A stretch of 64,000 nucleotides of DNA, from the NCBI RefSeq assembly GCF_000165425.1, contig NW_001799629.1:126737-190736 (forward strand), in the 5' to 3' direction. Every line of letters starts with the position of its first letter. Position 1 is the first letter of the stretch. Position numbers and translations under genes: made by a program. The stretch comes from Paramecium tetraurelia. Taxonomy: Eukaryota > Ciliophora > Oligohymenophorea > Peniculida > Parameciidae. Positions 6,709 to 54,189 of the stretch are shown in pieces. The notes below the pieces were generated by a model that made no database searches, had not been told where the DNA came from, and saw only the letters and a program-made list of their open reading frames with translations.

Positions 6709-9237
6709 ATGTTAATCATCATTTTGTTAAATTTATAAGTTGCAGTATACACGCGTTATGCAGCTACATAAGTTAAAAATACTGCAGCTTTTAAATAATT
6801 TAAACTTCATACAAGTGAGACTTCAGTATCCAGAGCAGGACATAAAATAAATTTAGAATAAAATCTCATTTTAGAAATTAGATAAGAAAACATTGATTAA
6901 GTTGATATTCAAATCTATGATGAGGCAAATAAACACTTTAGAATACCATCAGATCCTGTAATAGAATTCACTTATAATAGCCGTTCAACTATAATGATGT
7001 GAAGGATCCTTAATAATTCGACCATTATGATTATGACGTCAAAGTACAAGAAAATCCTATTGCGATACAAATACAAAGAGATGATGCTACCATTTTTCAA
7101 ATAACCGATTTAATCTTTAGTGAAACATATATTGAATTCACTCACATTCCACAAAATAAATAAATGTGGGGGTTGGGAGAAAGAAATTAAGTAGGATTTC
7201 GTTTCAGAGAAGGAATTTACACTTTATTTGCAAGAGATGAACCAAACATAATAGAAGATGGAAAACGACCAGGAAAGCATGTTTATTCTAGTCACCCAGT
7301 CTTATTAAGTATGGAAGAAAGTGGCAAATTCAATGTGATGTTCTACAAAACTTCATCTCCCATGGATGTTACTTATGAAGAGGACAAAATGAAATTTATA
7401 ACCATCGGTGGAATCATACATATAAAATTATTTTTGGGTGATTCTTCTCCAAGAACTGCAATTAAAAAATATCATTAATATTTGGGTGGTTGGATGCTCC
7501 CACCATTTTGGGGATTTGGATTTCATCAATGTAGATGGGGATATAAAAACAGCAGTGTATTAATAGATGTTGTACAACAATATTAAAAAAACCACATACC
7601 TATTGATATCATTTGGACTGATCTTGACTATATGGATGATAGATAAATATTTTCTGTAGATAATCACAATTTCCCCAAGAAAGATTACCAATACTTAAAA
7701 GGGTTAGGTGTGAGATACATTCCTTTGTTAGATGTGGCTGTTGGAGTGAAATATGGGGCTAAAGACCAAGGTTACAAAAAAGGAACAGAATATGATGTTT
7801 TTTTATATTCACCATATACTGGATATCGCTTTTAGGGTTATGTTTGGCCAGGTGATTCCTATTTTCCTGATTTCTTTCATCCAAATATCAGTTAATATTG
7901 GAATGAGATGCACGAACATTTATATGAATAAGTGGAATTTGATGGACTATGGGTTGATATGAATGAGCCAGCTAATTTCTGTGAAGGAGAATGCAATTGG
8001 AGTACTCATCATCGCGATCATCCTAAGAGAGAGGACAAATTGAATAAGGAAATCATATTTCCATACATCCCAGGAGAAATACCATTAGCTAATAAAACAT
8101 TACCTCCTCATTTATTACATCATGGACAATATTTACATAAGGATGTACATAATCTCTATGGAATCATGGATTCTTACTATACTTATTAGGCTTAAAAAGC
8201 TTTGGGGAAAGTACAACCCTTTCAAATCACCAGATCAACATTTCCAGGTACTGGTAAATATGCTTAACATTGGACAGGAGATAATGGAGCATCATGGGAT
8301 TTCCTTTATTTATCACTGGGACAAGTATTTTAATTTTAAATATTCGGAATTCCAATGGTTGGAGCTGATGTTTGTGGCTTTATGGGTGACACAAACGACA
8401 AGCTCTGTTGTAGATGGATTTAATTGGGCTTCTTTTACCCCTTCTTCAGAAACCATAATAATGATTTATCAAAACCATAAGAGTTCTTCAATCTTGGAGT
8501 TCAGGTTGTTTAATCTGCTTAAAAAAATATCCATCTTAGGTACACATTATTGAAATGGTTTTATTCTATTTTCATTCGAGAATAAAATCATGGCTCAAGT
8601 ATACTATAATAAATAACTATTAGTAATAAACCCCTTGTTTTTCATATTCCCTGAGGATTATCTTACATATAGAGATTTTGTGATGGATACTCAATTGTTA
8701 ATTGGTGAAGAGTTAATGGGTGCCCCAATTCTCAAAGAAGGAGTGACAAGAGTAGCCTATTTCCCAGATTCAAATTGGTATGACCTAATTACTGGATTGG
8801 AATTGAAGGGCAAATAAGATCACACTCTCTATTGTTCATACAATGAAATAGTGCCAATATTTATCAGAAGTGGTTACTTAGTGATACAAAATACAAAAGA
8901 GATCATTAAAAATCTGAAATCTTTAGATAATCATTATAGAATTATTGCAGCTCCAATTAATTCAGAAGCAAAAGGAGTATTTGCTGATTTGGATAATTTT
9001 GAGGATGAAGAGAAAGCACTTGAAGCTGAACTCATTAATATAAAATTAGTAGTCGAGGAGAAAAGTGTAAAGATTAGTATTTCCAAAAGTCATTCAGAAC
9101 TAATAATTGATGAAATACTAATTTATGGATTAGAATGTTCGTATAAGTAATGCACATCTGGGTATTATAAATACAACTCAGTATTCAAGGGTCCATTTAG
9201 TTTGGGATAGGATAAAACTGAATTAGTGCTAAAATGA
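6709..9237 (+). CDS. Secreted/lysosomal GH31 alpha-glucosidase
   Basis: An 826-residue glycoside hydrolase family 31 enzyme with two introns (6958-6980, 23 nt; 8599-8623, 25 nt), both confirmed by restoration of conserved sequence. The start [14 protein letters not shown] reads as a signal peptide. The catalytic nucleophile is Asp409 in [13 protein letters not shown], and the acid/base is Asp517 in [12 protein letters not shown]. Further family landmarks are [21 protein letters not shown] and the substrate-site RNHN. After the barrel come the usual beta domains (SGYLVIQN...). It releases glucose from alpha-1,4/1,6 glucans or maltose; with a signal peptide it would act in food vacuoles, lysosomes or outside the cell. 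All catalytic residues are present. It starts 25 bp from the divergent CDF gene, so the two promoters must overlap. Confidence 0.95.
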
Positions 9238-9308: not shown

Positions 9309-10944
9309 TCATCTTTTATGGTGTTTCTTGTGATGTCTATCCTTTTTATGTCTATGCTTTTTGTGCTTCTTCCTTTTAGATCTACTTCTACTAGAATCTG
9401 AAGATGAATCAGACGATGAATCACTATCAGAATCAGAAGAACTGCTGCTTTCTGGTACTTTTTATTTGATTTCAACTGGTTTTGTAAGAGTTGGTTACAC
9501 TAATTAGGGTGGCTATTATTATTATTATTAAGTTGGTTATGGTATTTATTCAGTGATCCCCCATCTCAATTCCTCTTAGAACTTTTCAACATAAGCATAA
9601 TCAACTAATTTTAATTTGAGTTTTTCATTTTTATACTCAAATACCTTGTTTCGGTCATTGATTAATCTTTTAGCATCTCTCTCATTTTCATATCTAACAA
9701 ATGCTACATTTCTGGTATTACCTGTTTGACGATCAATTGGAATTTTCAATTCTTTTATTTTGCCTTCCTTTCTAAATAATTCCATCAATTCCAAATGACT
9801 AGCTTTTTCAGGTAAATTCTTTATCAGAATTGTATCTTCAATGGCCCCTGATAACGTAGCCTTCAACTCTTCTTAACTCATCTTTCCCTTATTAATCCGC
9901 TCCAATTGTTTTAAGTCATTTCGCAACTTCTCAACTTTTTCCTTCAACCACTTCTTGCAATCATCATAAGATATTAACACTTAATATATTCTAGTACTCT
10001 TAGCAAACTTAATCTTGTCTTCATTAGCCAATACCACTGGTAAATGTGGTTCAACAAATTATTCATTATGAAAAGTACCTCCCTTCGAACCCAAATCAAC
10101 TAAGCACACTTACGATTAATTATTGATAAAAATAGCTGCATGTCTCCTGGATATAGAAGGATGTGCTAAATGAACATGATTTCTTTGATGAGATCCAAAA
10201 TATAAGAAAGCTGAATGTTTCATCTCAATCTTAGGCAAATTCTCTCCCTCTATTATTTAATATATTTATTTACCTTTCAAAACCTTCAACTCCACCTTTG
10301 GAATCATCTTTGACTCTTACTCAATTGGAAATGTCATCAATAACCACTTGTCTTGATCCTCATAATTATTAATGTCAGTTCTGATTTGTTCGAGTAATCT
10401 TCCAATTTAGTTCTAACCCTTCCCATCCACTACTCCCCAATACTGATTGCTTGGAGTGGAATGTGTAAATGTGTGAATCAATTAATAGTTATTTGTGGCT
10501 CTCAATGAATCTCTTATGTCGGCATTCCTCCTGAACTTGTCTCTCAACAACACCTCCATTATTCGCAGTCTTTATTTTGTCCAATGAGGGGGATCATCTA
10601 TATGTTAGGCTATCTAATAGACTTCCTGAACTGATTATGCCTATTTCACTCGAAATTGATATATACATTCACAAATTTCTACCTCATTTCCTCGTCCTGG
10701 GTTCTGGCAGATTAATATGCTGCATATACTGAATTATATATCAATCCCTATATTAATCAATTGACTTCTCTACCTAGTAATAAACAGCACAGGGATATTC
10801 ATTCGCCAAAAATTCAAATTGATCTGTAAATGATTCAATTCTTTCCATCCTCTATTTTCGAAACAGAAAGTCAGCCTGCTCTTCATATCTCTAGAGCTCA
10901 GCTTGAAATTAGGCATTCTTTTCCATTTAAGCAAAAAGAGACAT
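9309..10944 (-). CDS. NADAR-FHA-RRM fusion with SR-like tail
   Basis: A 527-residue protein with two 26-nt introns (10748-10773, 10641-10666). Residues ~38-170 match the NADAR/YbiA fold: FLANEYPCAVYYQG, then the helix SVYAAYQSART, DKFRRNADIRDSL, and NQYWGVVDGKGQNQIGRLL. Residues ~229-305 are an FHA domain (HPSISRRHAAIF, VDLGSKGGTFHNE). Residues ~350-437 are an RRM (DTILIKNLPEK as RNP2, TRNVAFVRYEN as RNP1). The C-terminus is Gln/Pro rich, then Ser/Asp and Arg/Lys/His rich like splicing-factor tails. Known family roles are N-glycosidase or ADP-ribose chemistry for NADAR, phospho-Thr binding for FHA and RNA binding for RRM. A nuclear RNA-linked role is my inference. The Glu usual in the NADAR S-x-E helix is Tyr here, so activity may be lost or changed. 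Confidence 0.85.
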
Positions 10945-11113: not shown

Positions 11114-11985
11114 ATGGAAAACTTGTTGTAATCTCCTCTTACAGGAAGGACTTATTCTCTTATTAAGATTATAGGAGAAGGAGAGTATGGGACTGTGTGG
11201 CTTGTTTAAAGAGATGATGGATGTAGTCTTTTCAATAAATTCTAGTGTTTTATGCTTGTAAATTGCTGAAGCCTAAATTTGCAGTTTGGACTATTGAAAA
11301 AAGCAAGAAATTCGAAGAAAGAGCCAATCAAGAAATACAAACTTTGATCAAAAGCACTCATGTTAATGTAGTCAGATATGAAGAGTGGTTTTAGATATAA
11401 AATTCTGGAAGATTTGATCGATACATTATATCCGAATATTGTGAAGGCGGTACTCTGTCAAAAATGTTGGAAACTAAAGGCAGATAAAGCGAGAATGATG
11501 CTTTGCATATTATGATACAATTGGCTGATGGATTACAATATATGCATAATCAAAAGATTATCCACAGAGACATTAAGCCTGCTAACATTATGTTGAAATA
11601 AGGAGTGCCAAAGTATATAGATTTCGGATTTGCAAAGCATTTTGAAGAGGAGAAGGTAGATCAAATACAAACTGTAGATGTAGGTTCTCCTTAATATATG
11701 GCTCCTGAGTTATTGGAAGAAAGTGGCTATTACAATTAAAAAGTGGATGTATGGGCTTTGGGAATTATTTTTTATTAATTACTTGTGGGTCAATTTCCAT
11801 GGAATATAGAATAAGCTACTTCATATCAGATGATCTTAAATATAATTTTGGATGATGAAACAATCTATTTTCCACCACAGATTCCTATCTCAGAAAGAAT
11901 TAAATAGACTATCATCTAAATGCTAATAATCAATCCTGATGACAGAATAGATAGCAATAAATTATGTTTGATGTTATAAAATTGA
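11114..11985 (+). CDS. Serine/threonine protein kinase, NEK/ULK-like size
   Basis: A 282-residue stand-alone kinase domain with one intron (11223-11245, 23 nt). The glycine loop is GEGEYGTVW and the ATP-binding Lys is in FYACKLL. The catalytic loop is [10 protein letters not shown], the metal motif is DFG (IDFGFAKHF), and the activation-segment end is GSPQYMAPELL, so all catalytic residues are present. There is no extension beyond the kinase fold. Substrate unknown. It runs tail to tail with RTF1, with only 4 bp between the two stop codons. Confidence 0.9.
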
Positions 11986-26602: not shown

Positions 26603-27930
26603 TCAACCCGAATGTTTTTCATTCTTTTTCTAGTTATTGTTATTGTTATTGTTATTGTTATTATTGTTATTATTATTATTATTATTTGTTTAAGTTTTGT
26701 TTGCCCCTTAATAAAATCCAGTTTAGCCCTGACCTTAAATGGCAGCTCTTTATTAATCACTAATATGATTCATATGCAGAGTCTGAACACCAGCAGCATG
26801 AATATTAGGATTAATACTCTAAAAGGATTTCATAACAAATGTCAAAACTGTTCTTCCAACCTGAAAATTTAATTGCTATTTAAATTACTTATATTGCAAT
26901 TTTATCCATGCATATAAGATATGGAGTTTAGAGACGAACTAAAGTTCCGAATTTACTATTATTATCAACTATAACAAAATTTCCCTTCTCATATTTGATA
27001 AAGGCATGTAGTCGCGATACTGAGATATCTGAGATTCTAATTTCGCATTAATGTCCTCGACCTAATTTGATTTAATCATCAGGAGTTCCTTTGATAAGGT
27101 ATATTCCTCTCTAGGCCTTCTTATCCTTTTCAGAGATTTATGTGTTTTCAAGAATTATATATGGTTGGTTGGGTCTTTCCAAGGCTGCCAAGTCGAGCAC
27201 TTTTCCTTAGAATCTAATTTATTGAGGCAACAATTCCTAGCATACTTCGCACTCTAATCTACAGGATATCAGTATTGATACTTCTTCCATCTATAGGAAA
27301 TTGTATTGCCAGATTCTTTTTTATAACCCCTGCTTTCTAACCATTGCTTTAAACAATTAAAATGCACATAGGCACAACTTCCATTGCATTTACAAGGAGT
27401 GATAAAAGGATCTTCTGGGGTTTCTTCTTCATTTAAACATATTTTGCACTACTATGTTACATTCCCATCCAAGGAAGGTGTAATTTTAGCTTCTGACTAG
27501 AAAACATCCTTCACTGTTCTTATTTGTCCCTTACTGTCTCTGATTTCGATCACATGGTATTCAACCCTGCCTAATTTTAGAAGATCCCCCTCTTATAATG
27601 TATAACCCTATACTGTAATAAATATTAATACCTTTTAAACACCATCAGCATTTTTTAAACTACGAACGATTAAATAATTTTCGTTTTCTGTTGAGTTTTA
27701 ATTCGGTTGAATAAAATATTAGTCTGAATGTTAATAAGAATTATACCTCCTTGGGCTTAAATGGATGTTAGAGGTAAGTGCGCCTCATCCTTGGCCTTTC
27801 CATCTTATATAACTATTTCATTCTCTATAATAAATTAACCCTTTCAAACCTTCTCTGCTAACTTTGCATGATCCTTCAACCCTATGTTTTTTAACGCTTA
27901 AAGATTTAGTCTCATAATCAAACAATCCAT
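26603..27930 (-). CDS. RINGv (C4HC3) plus FHA protein with poly-Asn tail
   Basis: A 400-residue protein with five introns (27823-27849, 27724-27746, 27608-27631, 27259-27281, 26861-26888); the exon sum is exact. It starts MDCLIMRLNLQALKNIG. An N-terminal FHA-like segment reads EGDLLKLGRVEYHVIEIRD. A RINGv-type zinc finger follows: CKICLNEEE, PCKCNGSCAYVHFNCLKQWL, then LECEVC. A good FHA domain is C-terminal: IKLGRG, ISDISVSRLHAFI, DNNSKFGTLV, IAIQVGRTVLTFV. The protein ends with about 14 Asn. RINGv domains are E3 ubiquitin ligases and FHA domains bind phospho-Thr, so phosphorylation-guided ubiquitination is a fair inference. No membrane segment is seen, unlike MARCH ligases. Confidence 0.82.
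26632..26690 (-). repeat. Trinucleotide/hexanucleotide repeat coding for poly-Asn
   Basis: Plus-strand TTATTG/TTATTA units. On the sense strand this is (AAT/AAC)n, the Asn run at the end of the RINGv-FHA gene. Confidence 0.8.
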
Positions 27931-53059: not shown

Positions 53060-54189
53060 ATGGATTATGATAAATTGTACACGAGAATTAAAAAGTACCC
53101 TCAAAAATGGGGATTGTAAGAAGTAGAAACTTGGTTGGCAATAACTGGACTCTCAGAATTTTAATTCAAATTCGTTTCAAATTAAATAGATGGTGCTCTC
53201 TTATCGGCCCTTGAAGAAAGCGACCTGATTGAAATAGGAATAGATGAGAAATCTGAAAAATTCCCAATTTTAATCCAATGTAGAAATTGAATACATAAGT
53301 AGGGATTAAATAAGGTCTAAAAGATTACTCATATTTTCTTAAAGATAAACTGCATTAAGAGTATATCCTTTAGGGAACAACAGAAGATGATCTGAGCATA
53401 ACAAAATGCTAGCGTTCTTCATTGATAGCATCGTAGAATTATGAGAAAACTATTTAAAAGGTTGTTACTTTCTATTAAGAGGAAGGTGCAATTAACGAGG
53501 TGTAACCATTTTAATAGGTGAGTCAAAAATATGAATAAAATCTGAATGGACTCATCTTAATTTTATATCAAGATCCTCCAAAATAATACCATTTTCTTAA
53601 TTAAGAAATAACAATAGGAAGAAACTACGATAATACAATCGTTTTATCTGAAGATTACATAAGCAGACAACATTGTAAAATAACATGGAATTCAAACAAC
53701 CAAGCATTTTATCTACAAGATTTGGGTTCTACATCAGGAACCTACATTTTACTCATTTATCCAACTTTGTTATAAGAATAATTTATCATATAAATGGGAT
53801 CTGCTTAATATAGAATAGAGAGACTAGATATCCAAGGTGTGAAATGTTCAGTACAGATGAAGATTGTTGAAGGCAATAGATTAGGGTTTACATTTTGTTT
53901 TGAATTAATAAAAAATTAGTCGAGTTTATTATTCGGCCGGAATTAGTAGTTGTTTGCTATGGATCCTGTAATTATTTGAGTTTCACATAGATAGAATTTG
54001 AGCAATATACATGCACAATTTCAATTCATCGATGATGGATTAGTTATTGAAGATCAAGGTAGTAGAAATGGTACTTGGTTGAGATTGAGTGTTCCTTCAT
54101 AAGTTAGTGAACCAATTAAATTGATAAATGGAAGGAGATTTAGATTAGCTTATGAGAAGGTTTTTGAATGTGTTGTGAATCAAATTTGA
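53060..54189 (+). CDS. SAM domain plus two FHA domains
   Basis: A 360-residue protein with two introns (53280-53299, 20 nt; 53968-53994, 27 nt). The N-terminal SAM domain runs from WGLQEVETWLAITGLSEF to SDLIEIGIDEKSEKFPILIQ and is completed across the first intron (LGIKQGLKDYSYFLKD). FHA1: ITIGRNYDNTIVLSEDYISR, RQHCKITW, DLGSTSGTYI. FHA2: LLFGRNQQLFAMDP, NLSNIHAQFQFIDD, DQGSRNGTWLRL. FHA domains bind phospho-Thr and SAM domains oligomerise, so a phospho-dependent scaffold is a reasonable inference. No catalytic domain is present. Confidence 0.88.

Follow-up and report, generated by a model that had tools for sequence, protein, structure and literature searches.

The FHA domains of NIPP1 (PPP1R8), SNIP1, DDL and kanadaptin form a group with roles in RNA processing, and the RES splicing complex has both an FHA subunit and an RRM subunit. 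The phosphothreonine pocket of the FHA fold is made by an Arg-Ser-Arg/Lys triplet, in which a role has been assigned to the first arginine (PMC4157861).

In the structure of the P. nicotianae NADAR with ADP-ribose, the distal ribose is held by E43 and E125, and the pyrophosphates by K50, R79, W89, R93, W133 and D130, the last of these through a water molecule (PMC11543638). Mutation of the E. coli C7 NADAR is reported in the same work to show that E88, K95 and D171, which match E43, K50 and the acid of the last strand, respectively, are important. In vitro, E88A has a minor effect, E88Q is inactive and K95R still works; in cells, E88 and K95R mutants gave no rescue (PMC11543638). A histidine in the last strand is described as the mark of the phage type of NADAR (PMC11125620), and phage NADARs are reported to be active (PMC11125620, PMC11833690). 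What NADARs do in eukaryotes is stated to be an open question (PMC11125620).

For a protein in which NADAR, FHA and RRM domains are joined, no description was found among the literature matches listed (titles and abstracts of open-access papers), in keeping with the original prediction for the locus described below, which knew this architecture from no other lineage. The main text of a viral survey of NADAR systems does not contain the words FHA or RRM (PMC9503650). PARP10-type proteins are alike in having an RRM beside an ADP-ribose-related domain, but the ciliate protein has no transferase domain among its Pfam matches; the E. coli C7 NADAR is reported to be inactive on the uracil marks that PARP10 makes (PMC13036486).

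Gene structure, domain order and the duplicate gene

The window, by which we mean the whole stretch of DNA analysed (64,000 nucleotides of contig NW_001799629.1 of Paramecium tetraurelia), carries on its minus strand a gene at 9309..10944 which, read in the ciliate code (table 6), has four exons (10944-10774, 10747-10667, 10640-10274 and 10249-9309) and encodes a protein of 519 aa. The original prediction, made from the letters of the sequence, had placed NADAR, FHA and RRM domains in one ORF and had proposed a significant NADAR HMM match as a check; in the spliced 519-aa product all three domains of this single gene do indeed score over their Pfam cut-offs. The NADAR domain (residues 28-174; 10371..10863, minus strand, interrupted by introns 1 and 2) matches positions 2-162 of the 163 in PF08719 with 56.2 bits against a cut-off of 35.1 (E = 6.3e-15). 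The FHA domain (about residues 198-299; 9972..10301, minus strand, interrupted by intron 3) matches PF00498 over residues 224-288 with 61.5 bits (1.1e-16, cut-off 20.7), and the RRM (residues 347-417; 9618..9830, minus strand) matches PF00076 with 58.3 bits (6.8e-16, cut-off 20.7). The NADAR-FHA-RRM fusion is one conserved protein, an architecture established here in one ciliate genome, that of P. tetraurelia, in two gene copies.

These two copies are also the only places found by a search of the whole genome for the NADAR family, a search in which introns can hide weak matches and which detected only the third-exon part of the window gene. The FHA family is large here, with 89 matches in the genome counted exon by exon; within the window, further FHA matches over the Pfam cut-off lie at 53608-53748 and 53932-54147 on the plus strand and at 26937-27068 on the minus strand.

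Introns 1 (10748..10773) and 2 (10641..10666), each of 26 nt with GTA..TAG ends on the minus strand, recur at equal position and length in the duplicate gene, and both had been rightly predicted. What was overlooked is a third intron (10250..10273, minus strand), again GTA..TAG and of 24 nt, which had been taken for coding sequence, being divisible by three in length and free of in-frame TGA. The introns of the duplicate fall at the corresponding three positions and measure 26, 26 and 25 nt, and the last of these, likewise GTA..TAG, would break the frame if it were coding. Since this one-base difference in length falls between indel-free coding flanks, the 24-nt stretch 10273-10250 is best read as an intron, and the two-intron model is ruled out by its 25-nt counterpart. 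The product, put originally at 527 aa, comes to 519 aa once intron 3 is spliced out, and with the intron removed the start of the FHA domain (VELKVLKEGENLPKIEM) aligns with NIPP1 and DDL.

It might be argued that two adjoining genes have been wrongly joined, the gene having been put together here from genomic sequence. We regard this as improbable in the extreme, since exon 3 is one open frame that passes, with no stop, from the C-terminal half of the NADAR domain through the linker and the first strand of the FHA domain, and since a diverged duplicate on another contig has equal domain order and exon structure. Joining by chance or artefact was rejected on these same grounds, namely one ORF over the NADAR/FHA junction and its conservation in the duplicate. 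The unbroken run of exon 3 from NADAR into FHA similarly makes it unlikely that the NADAR and FHA-RRM parts are separate transcripts.

C194, another contig of this genome, carries the duplicate. The two proteins are 96% identical, and dN/dS between the copies is 0.030 over 519 aligned codons; by part it is 0.017 for the NADAR domain, 0.025 for FHA, 0.026 for the RRM and 0.049 for residues 436-519, these ratios by part being rough, as dS ranges from 0.17 to 1.07 between stretches of the gene and is saturated in one linker. The whole protein is under strong purifying selection in both copies. From the low dN/dS, together with the identity of the last 49 residues in the two copies, it follows that the three domains and the tail have been kept by selection in both.

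As to the surroundings of the gene, a Ser/Thr protein kinase gene (assigned by eye) lies head-to-head with it at about 11114-11985 on the plus strand of the window. The kinase stretch aligns poorly in the duplicated region (L002) and the sequence beyond aligns again, which suggests that one kinase copy was lost after duplication. On the other side, an alpha-glucosidase-like gene (GH31-type, by eye; 6924-9237, plus strand) converges on the NADAR-FHA-RRM gene, and its end is also conserved beside the duplicate.

The NADAR ligand site

The ciliate NADAR is akin to the NADAR/YbiA hydrolases, with 31-34% identity to nine aligned phage NADARs and 22-29% to five bacterial ones. Its best tblastn E to phage NADARs is 4e-17, and E. 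coli YbiA (2b3w) is its one significant solved match (9e-7). Three viral contig NADARs (L079, L088 and L156) have 38-40% identity over the best segment, the highest among the 80 kept; two N-terminal peptide patterns, run on the viral contigs of a non-ciliate collection, found no relatives of the two full-length ciliate proteins there, and none came up when viral contigs were scanned with YbiA. The likeness extends to TIGR02464 (E = 2.4e-11), such that the domain might be taken for a riboflavin-pathway N-glycosidase of the YbiA kind, merely fused to other domains. The 44.1 bits of this match, however, lie below the curated equivalog cut-off of 73.7, the catalytic Glu is replaced and the domain is fused to an RNA-binding module, all of which makes such an identity very improbable.

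Alignment and motif, rather than structure, served to match the ligand positions. The reference profile was made from 14 phage and bacterial NADARs, with the ciliate row left out, and the aligned set holds 52 HMM-found loci in bacterial genomes (51 distinct sequences, all bacterial), drawn as 8 + 8 + 9 + 27 from four HMM searches, the last of which had 4 rows without a locus. One of the 52 is a fragment without column 65, another (L181) is below the family cut-off, and the 4 centre genomes of the set had initially come from a pattern search with YbiA. Among eukaryotic NADARs, that of P. nicotianae alone was also considered, from its published description. A separate pattern-found set (113 loci, 100 of them aligned and the other 13 left out for want of a tblastn match) has Glu at the Tyr65 column in 93/93, a count that is biased because that Glu was a requirement of one of the two patterns used in the scan; the counts given below are those of the HMM-found set.

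Where the P. nicotianae NADAR has its catalytic Glu (E43), 50/50 bacterial NADARs have Glu and both ciliate copies Tyr (Tyr65; 10724..10726, minus strand). Seven residues on, a spacing that is equal in the three proteins (65/72, 43/50 and, in E. coli C7, 88/95), the pyrophosphate Lys (K50) is replaced by Arg72 (10703..10705, minus strand), where the 50 homologues have Lys in 47, Arg in 2 and Leu in 1. Gln96 falls in a column of Arg (44), Lys (3), Gln (1), Asp (1) and Tyr (1), again out of 50, and Asn149 in one that is Asp in 49/49. On the last strand the position of the Glu (E125) is taken by one of two histidines, His140 or His144 (within 10461..10475, minus strand): three alignments place His140 there, in a column of Glu (48) and His (1) among 49, whereas counting back from the YWG motif makes His144 face E125. 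Unlike the NADAR/YbiA hydrolases, therefore, the ciliate protein has Glu→Tyr, Lys→Arg, Arg→Gln and Asp→Asn, to which Glu→His is to be added against the bacterial homologues, and is fused to FHA and RRM domains. Retained are W104 (Trp in 47/49), R108 (Lys 36, Arg 12, Asn 1 of 49) and W152 (Trp in 49/49), as is the G159/N161/G164 frame. The changed sites carry the same letters in both ciliate copies, and sequencing error is thus unlikely.

The last-strand His alone is no argument for inactivity, since phage NADARs with His are active, but the change of Glu to Tyr does argue for it. Loss of NADAR hydrolase activity is, on these comparisons, likely rather than proven, given also the minor effect of E88A and the working K95R in vitro; W104, R108 and W152, all kept, and the occurrence of Gln in the Arg column of 1/50 homologues speak against a pseudo-enzyme. 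The eraser originally predicted fares poorly in this regard, with Tyr in place of the Glu of 50/50 homologues and further ligand positions changed.

Two rival readings turn on these residues, the main one being a reader of ADP-ribose or nucleotides and the second an RNA de-ADP-ribosylase. As a reader, the NADAR pocket would bind ADP-ribose, or a NAD-type or other nucleotide ligand, without cleaving it, and would bring the RRM/FHA complex to modified targets, whether RNA or protein. The retained tryptophans, R108 and Gly/Asn frame favour such binding, as do the strong constraint on the NADAR domain and the 30 PARP-domain matches in the genome (counted exon by exon), on account of which ADP-ribose writers may exist there; the positions matching E43, K50, R79 and D130, which serve the distal ribose and pyrophosphates, are nevertheless changed, and we hold the reader to be rather unlikely. 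The second reading takes the domain for a working ADP-ribosyl hydrolase of guanosine in RNA, directed by the RRM, with a site rebuilt from Tyr65, Arg72 and His140 or His144. That NADARs are reported to reverse guanosine ADP-ribosylation in RNA (PMC11833690), that Lys→Arg is tolerated and E88A minor in vitro and that phage NADARs with His are active would all be in its favour. Set against this, the invariant Glu is Tyr, E88Q is inactive in vitro and neither E88 nor K95R mutants rescue in cells, and we consider an eraser of this kind distinctly improbable. It is likewise doubtful that the protein is a self-guided reader or eraser of RNA ADP-ribosylation, whose NADAR domain, tethered by the RRM and with a rebuilt Tyr/Arg/His pocket, would recognise ADP-ribosylated or otherwise nucleotide-capped nuclear RNA in ciliates.

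FHA domain, RRM and tail

Of the 20 solved sequences that the FHA domain matches with E no higher than 0.1, the leading ones are, in order, NIPP1 (2jpe, 7e-8), the uncharacterised 2n84, DDL (3.8e-7), a mycobacterial FHA protein and SNIP1 (1.7e-6), with kanadaptin at 1.4e-4 and bacterial FHAs making up many of the remainder. The ciliate protein thus shares its FHA match with the NIPP1/SNIP1/DDL/kanadaptin group, alongside 2n84 and bacterial FHAs, but differs from it in having Ser for the pocket Arg and in its extra NADAR and RRM domains. A link of the FHA domain to RNA processing would be modest, as the second- and fourth-best matches are 2n84 and the mycobacterial protein.

The phosphothreonine triplet here reads Ser226-Ser240-Arg241, such that the first Arg is lost. 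Ser226 (10191..10193, minus strand) stands where 29 other FHA segments have Arg (26) or Lys (3); these come from 30 of the 89 genome matches, taken as a sample, which without the window gene pair gave 32 aligned segments from 28 loci. Of these segments 29 have a residue in the Arg column, and several are near-identical copies. When the contacts of the kanadaptin FHA (PMC4157861) are paired by motif and spacing, 3/5 are changed (S226, K262 and G263 for R193, T239 and H240), while S240 and R241 are kept; Lys262 might compensate in charge. The description of the domain as phospho-Thr-binding, which formed part of the original prediction, is accordingly hard to maintain, the first Arg of its Arg-Ser-Arg/Lys pocket appearing as Ser.

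With the NIPP1 FHA as query on the genome, the NADAR-FHA-RRM gene pair ranks next after a kanadaptin-like gene. An identity with kanadaptin is ruled out by this separate kanadaptin-like gene (assigned by eye), and the idea of a fusion of RES-type FHA and RRM subunits is weakened by the presence of a separate SNIP1-like gene (also by eye). The SNIP1-like FHA genes form a pair in the same genome, at C66:192615-192854 (L027) and C41:38656-38895 (L035); upstream of the FHA domain, L027 has a stretch rich in Lys and His that resembles, by eye, the tail of the NADAR-FHA-RRM protein.

The RNP1 and RNP2 consensus stretches of the RRM contribute aromatic residues for RNA binding. In the ciliate protein, RNP1 (RNVAFVRY) keeps Phe at position 5 and resembles the RGVAFVRY found in RRM2 of Sxl; RNP2 (ILIKNL) has Leu at position 2 and resembles LLAKNL of nucleolin. 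AlphaFold2, run with no alignment on exons 3 and 4 read straight through (355 aa, including 8 residues from intron 3), gave a mean pLDDT of 40.6 and usable confidence in the RRM part only, where the blocks have 72-82 except for one at 57. RNA binding by the RRM is plausible.

The tail, that is the last 49 aa (9312..9458, minus strand; identical in both copies), consists of an acidic Ser/Asp run followed by a Lys/His/Arg run. It had been called ‘SR-like’, a loose term here: the 49 residues contain 4 overlapping RS/SR dipeptides and no RS-repeat domain, and Pfam SR-25 reaches 23.2 bits, below its cut-off of 40. The protein is therefore like SR proteins and RRM splicing factors (Sxl, SRSF2) in its Sxl RRM2-type RNP1 and in its low-complexity charged tail, and unlike SR proteins in having no true RS domain.

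A putative RNA-binding scaffold

We favour, with slightly more confidence than doubt, a nuclear RNA-binding adaptor with a pseudo-NADAR and a non-canonical FHA domain, rather than an enzyme. A scaffold appears likelier than an enzyme because the ADP-ribose-removing residues of the NADAR domain and part of the FHA phosphate pocket are replaced. In such an adaptor, the RRM and the basic tail would bind RNA and direct the protein to the nucleus, and the Ser/Asp run would be a likely kinase target. The FHA and NADAR domains would then offer docking surfaces within an RNA–protein complex, the latter as a pseudo-hydrolase that keeps the family profile and has presumably lost the residues for ADP-ribosyl-guanosine hydrolysis, retained to bind a partner or perhaps a nucleotide. 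Loss of activity, nuclear location, RNA binding and scaffolding are all inferred here from sequence.

The locus offers a compact test case, being a single gene pair in an organism whose genes can be silenced by feeding. The earlier suggestion of a reader or eraser of RNA or RNP modifications survives in part: the constrained fusion exists and a role with RNA is plausible (PMC11833690), while the eraser and the phosphothreonine binding do not follow. An RNA de-ADP-ribosylase would nonetheless be worth an assay, since NADARs are reported to reverse guanosine ADP-ribosylation in RNA (PMC11833690). Beyond this, a NADAR domain that is fused to an RNA-binding domain and strongly selected although the catalytic Glu is gone hints that the NADAR fold may serve in RNA–protein complexes in a non-enzymatic way.
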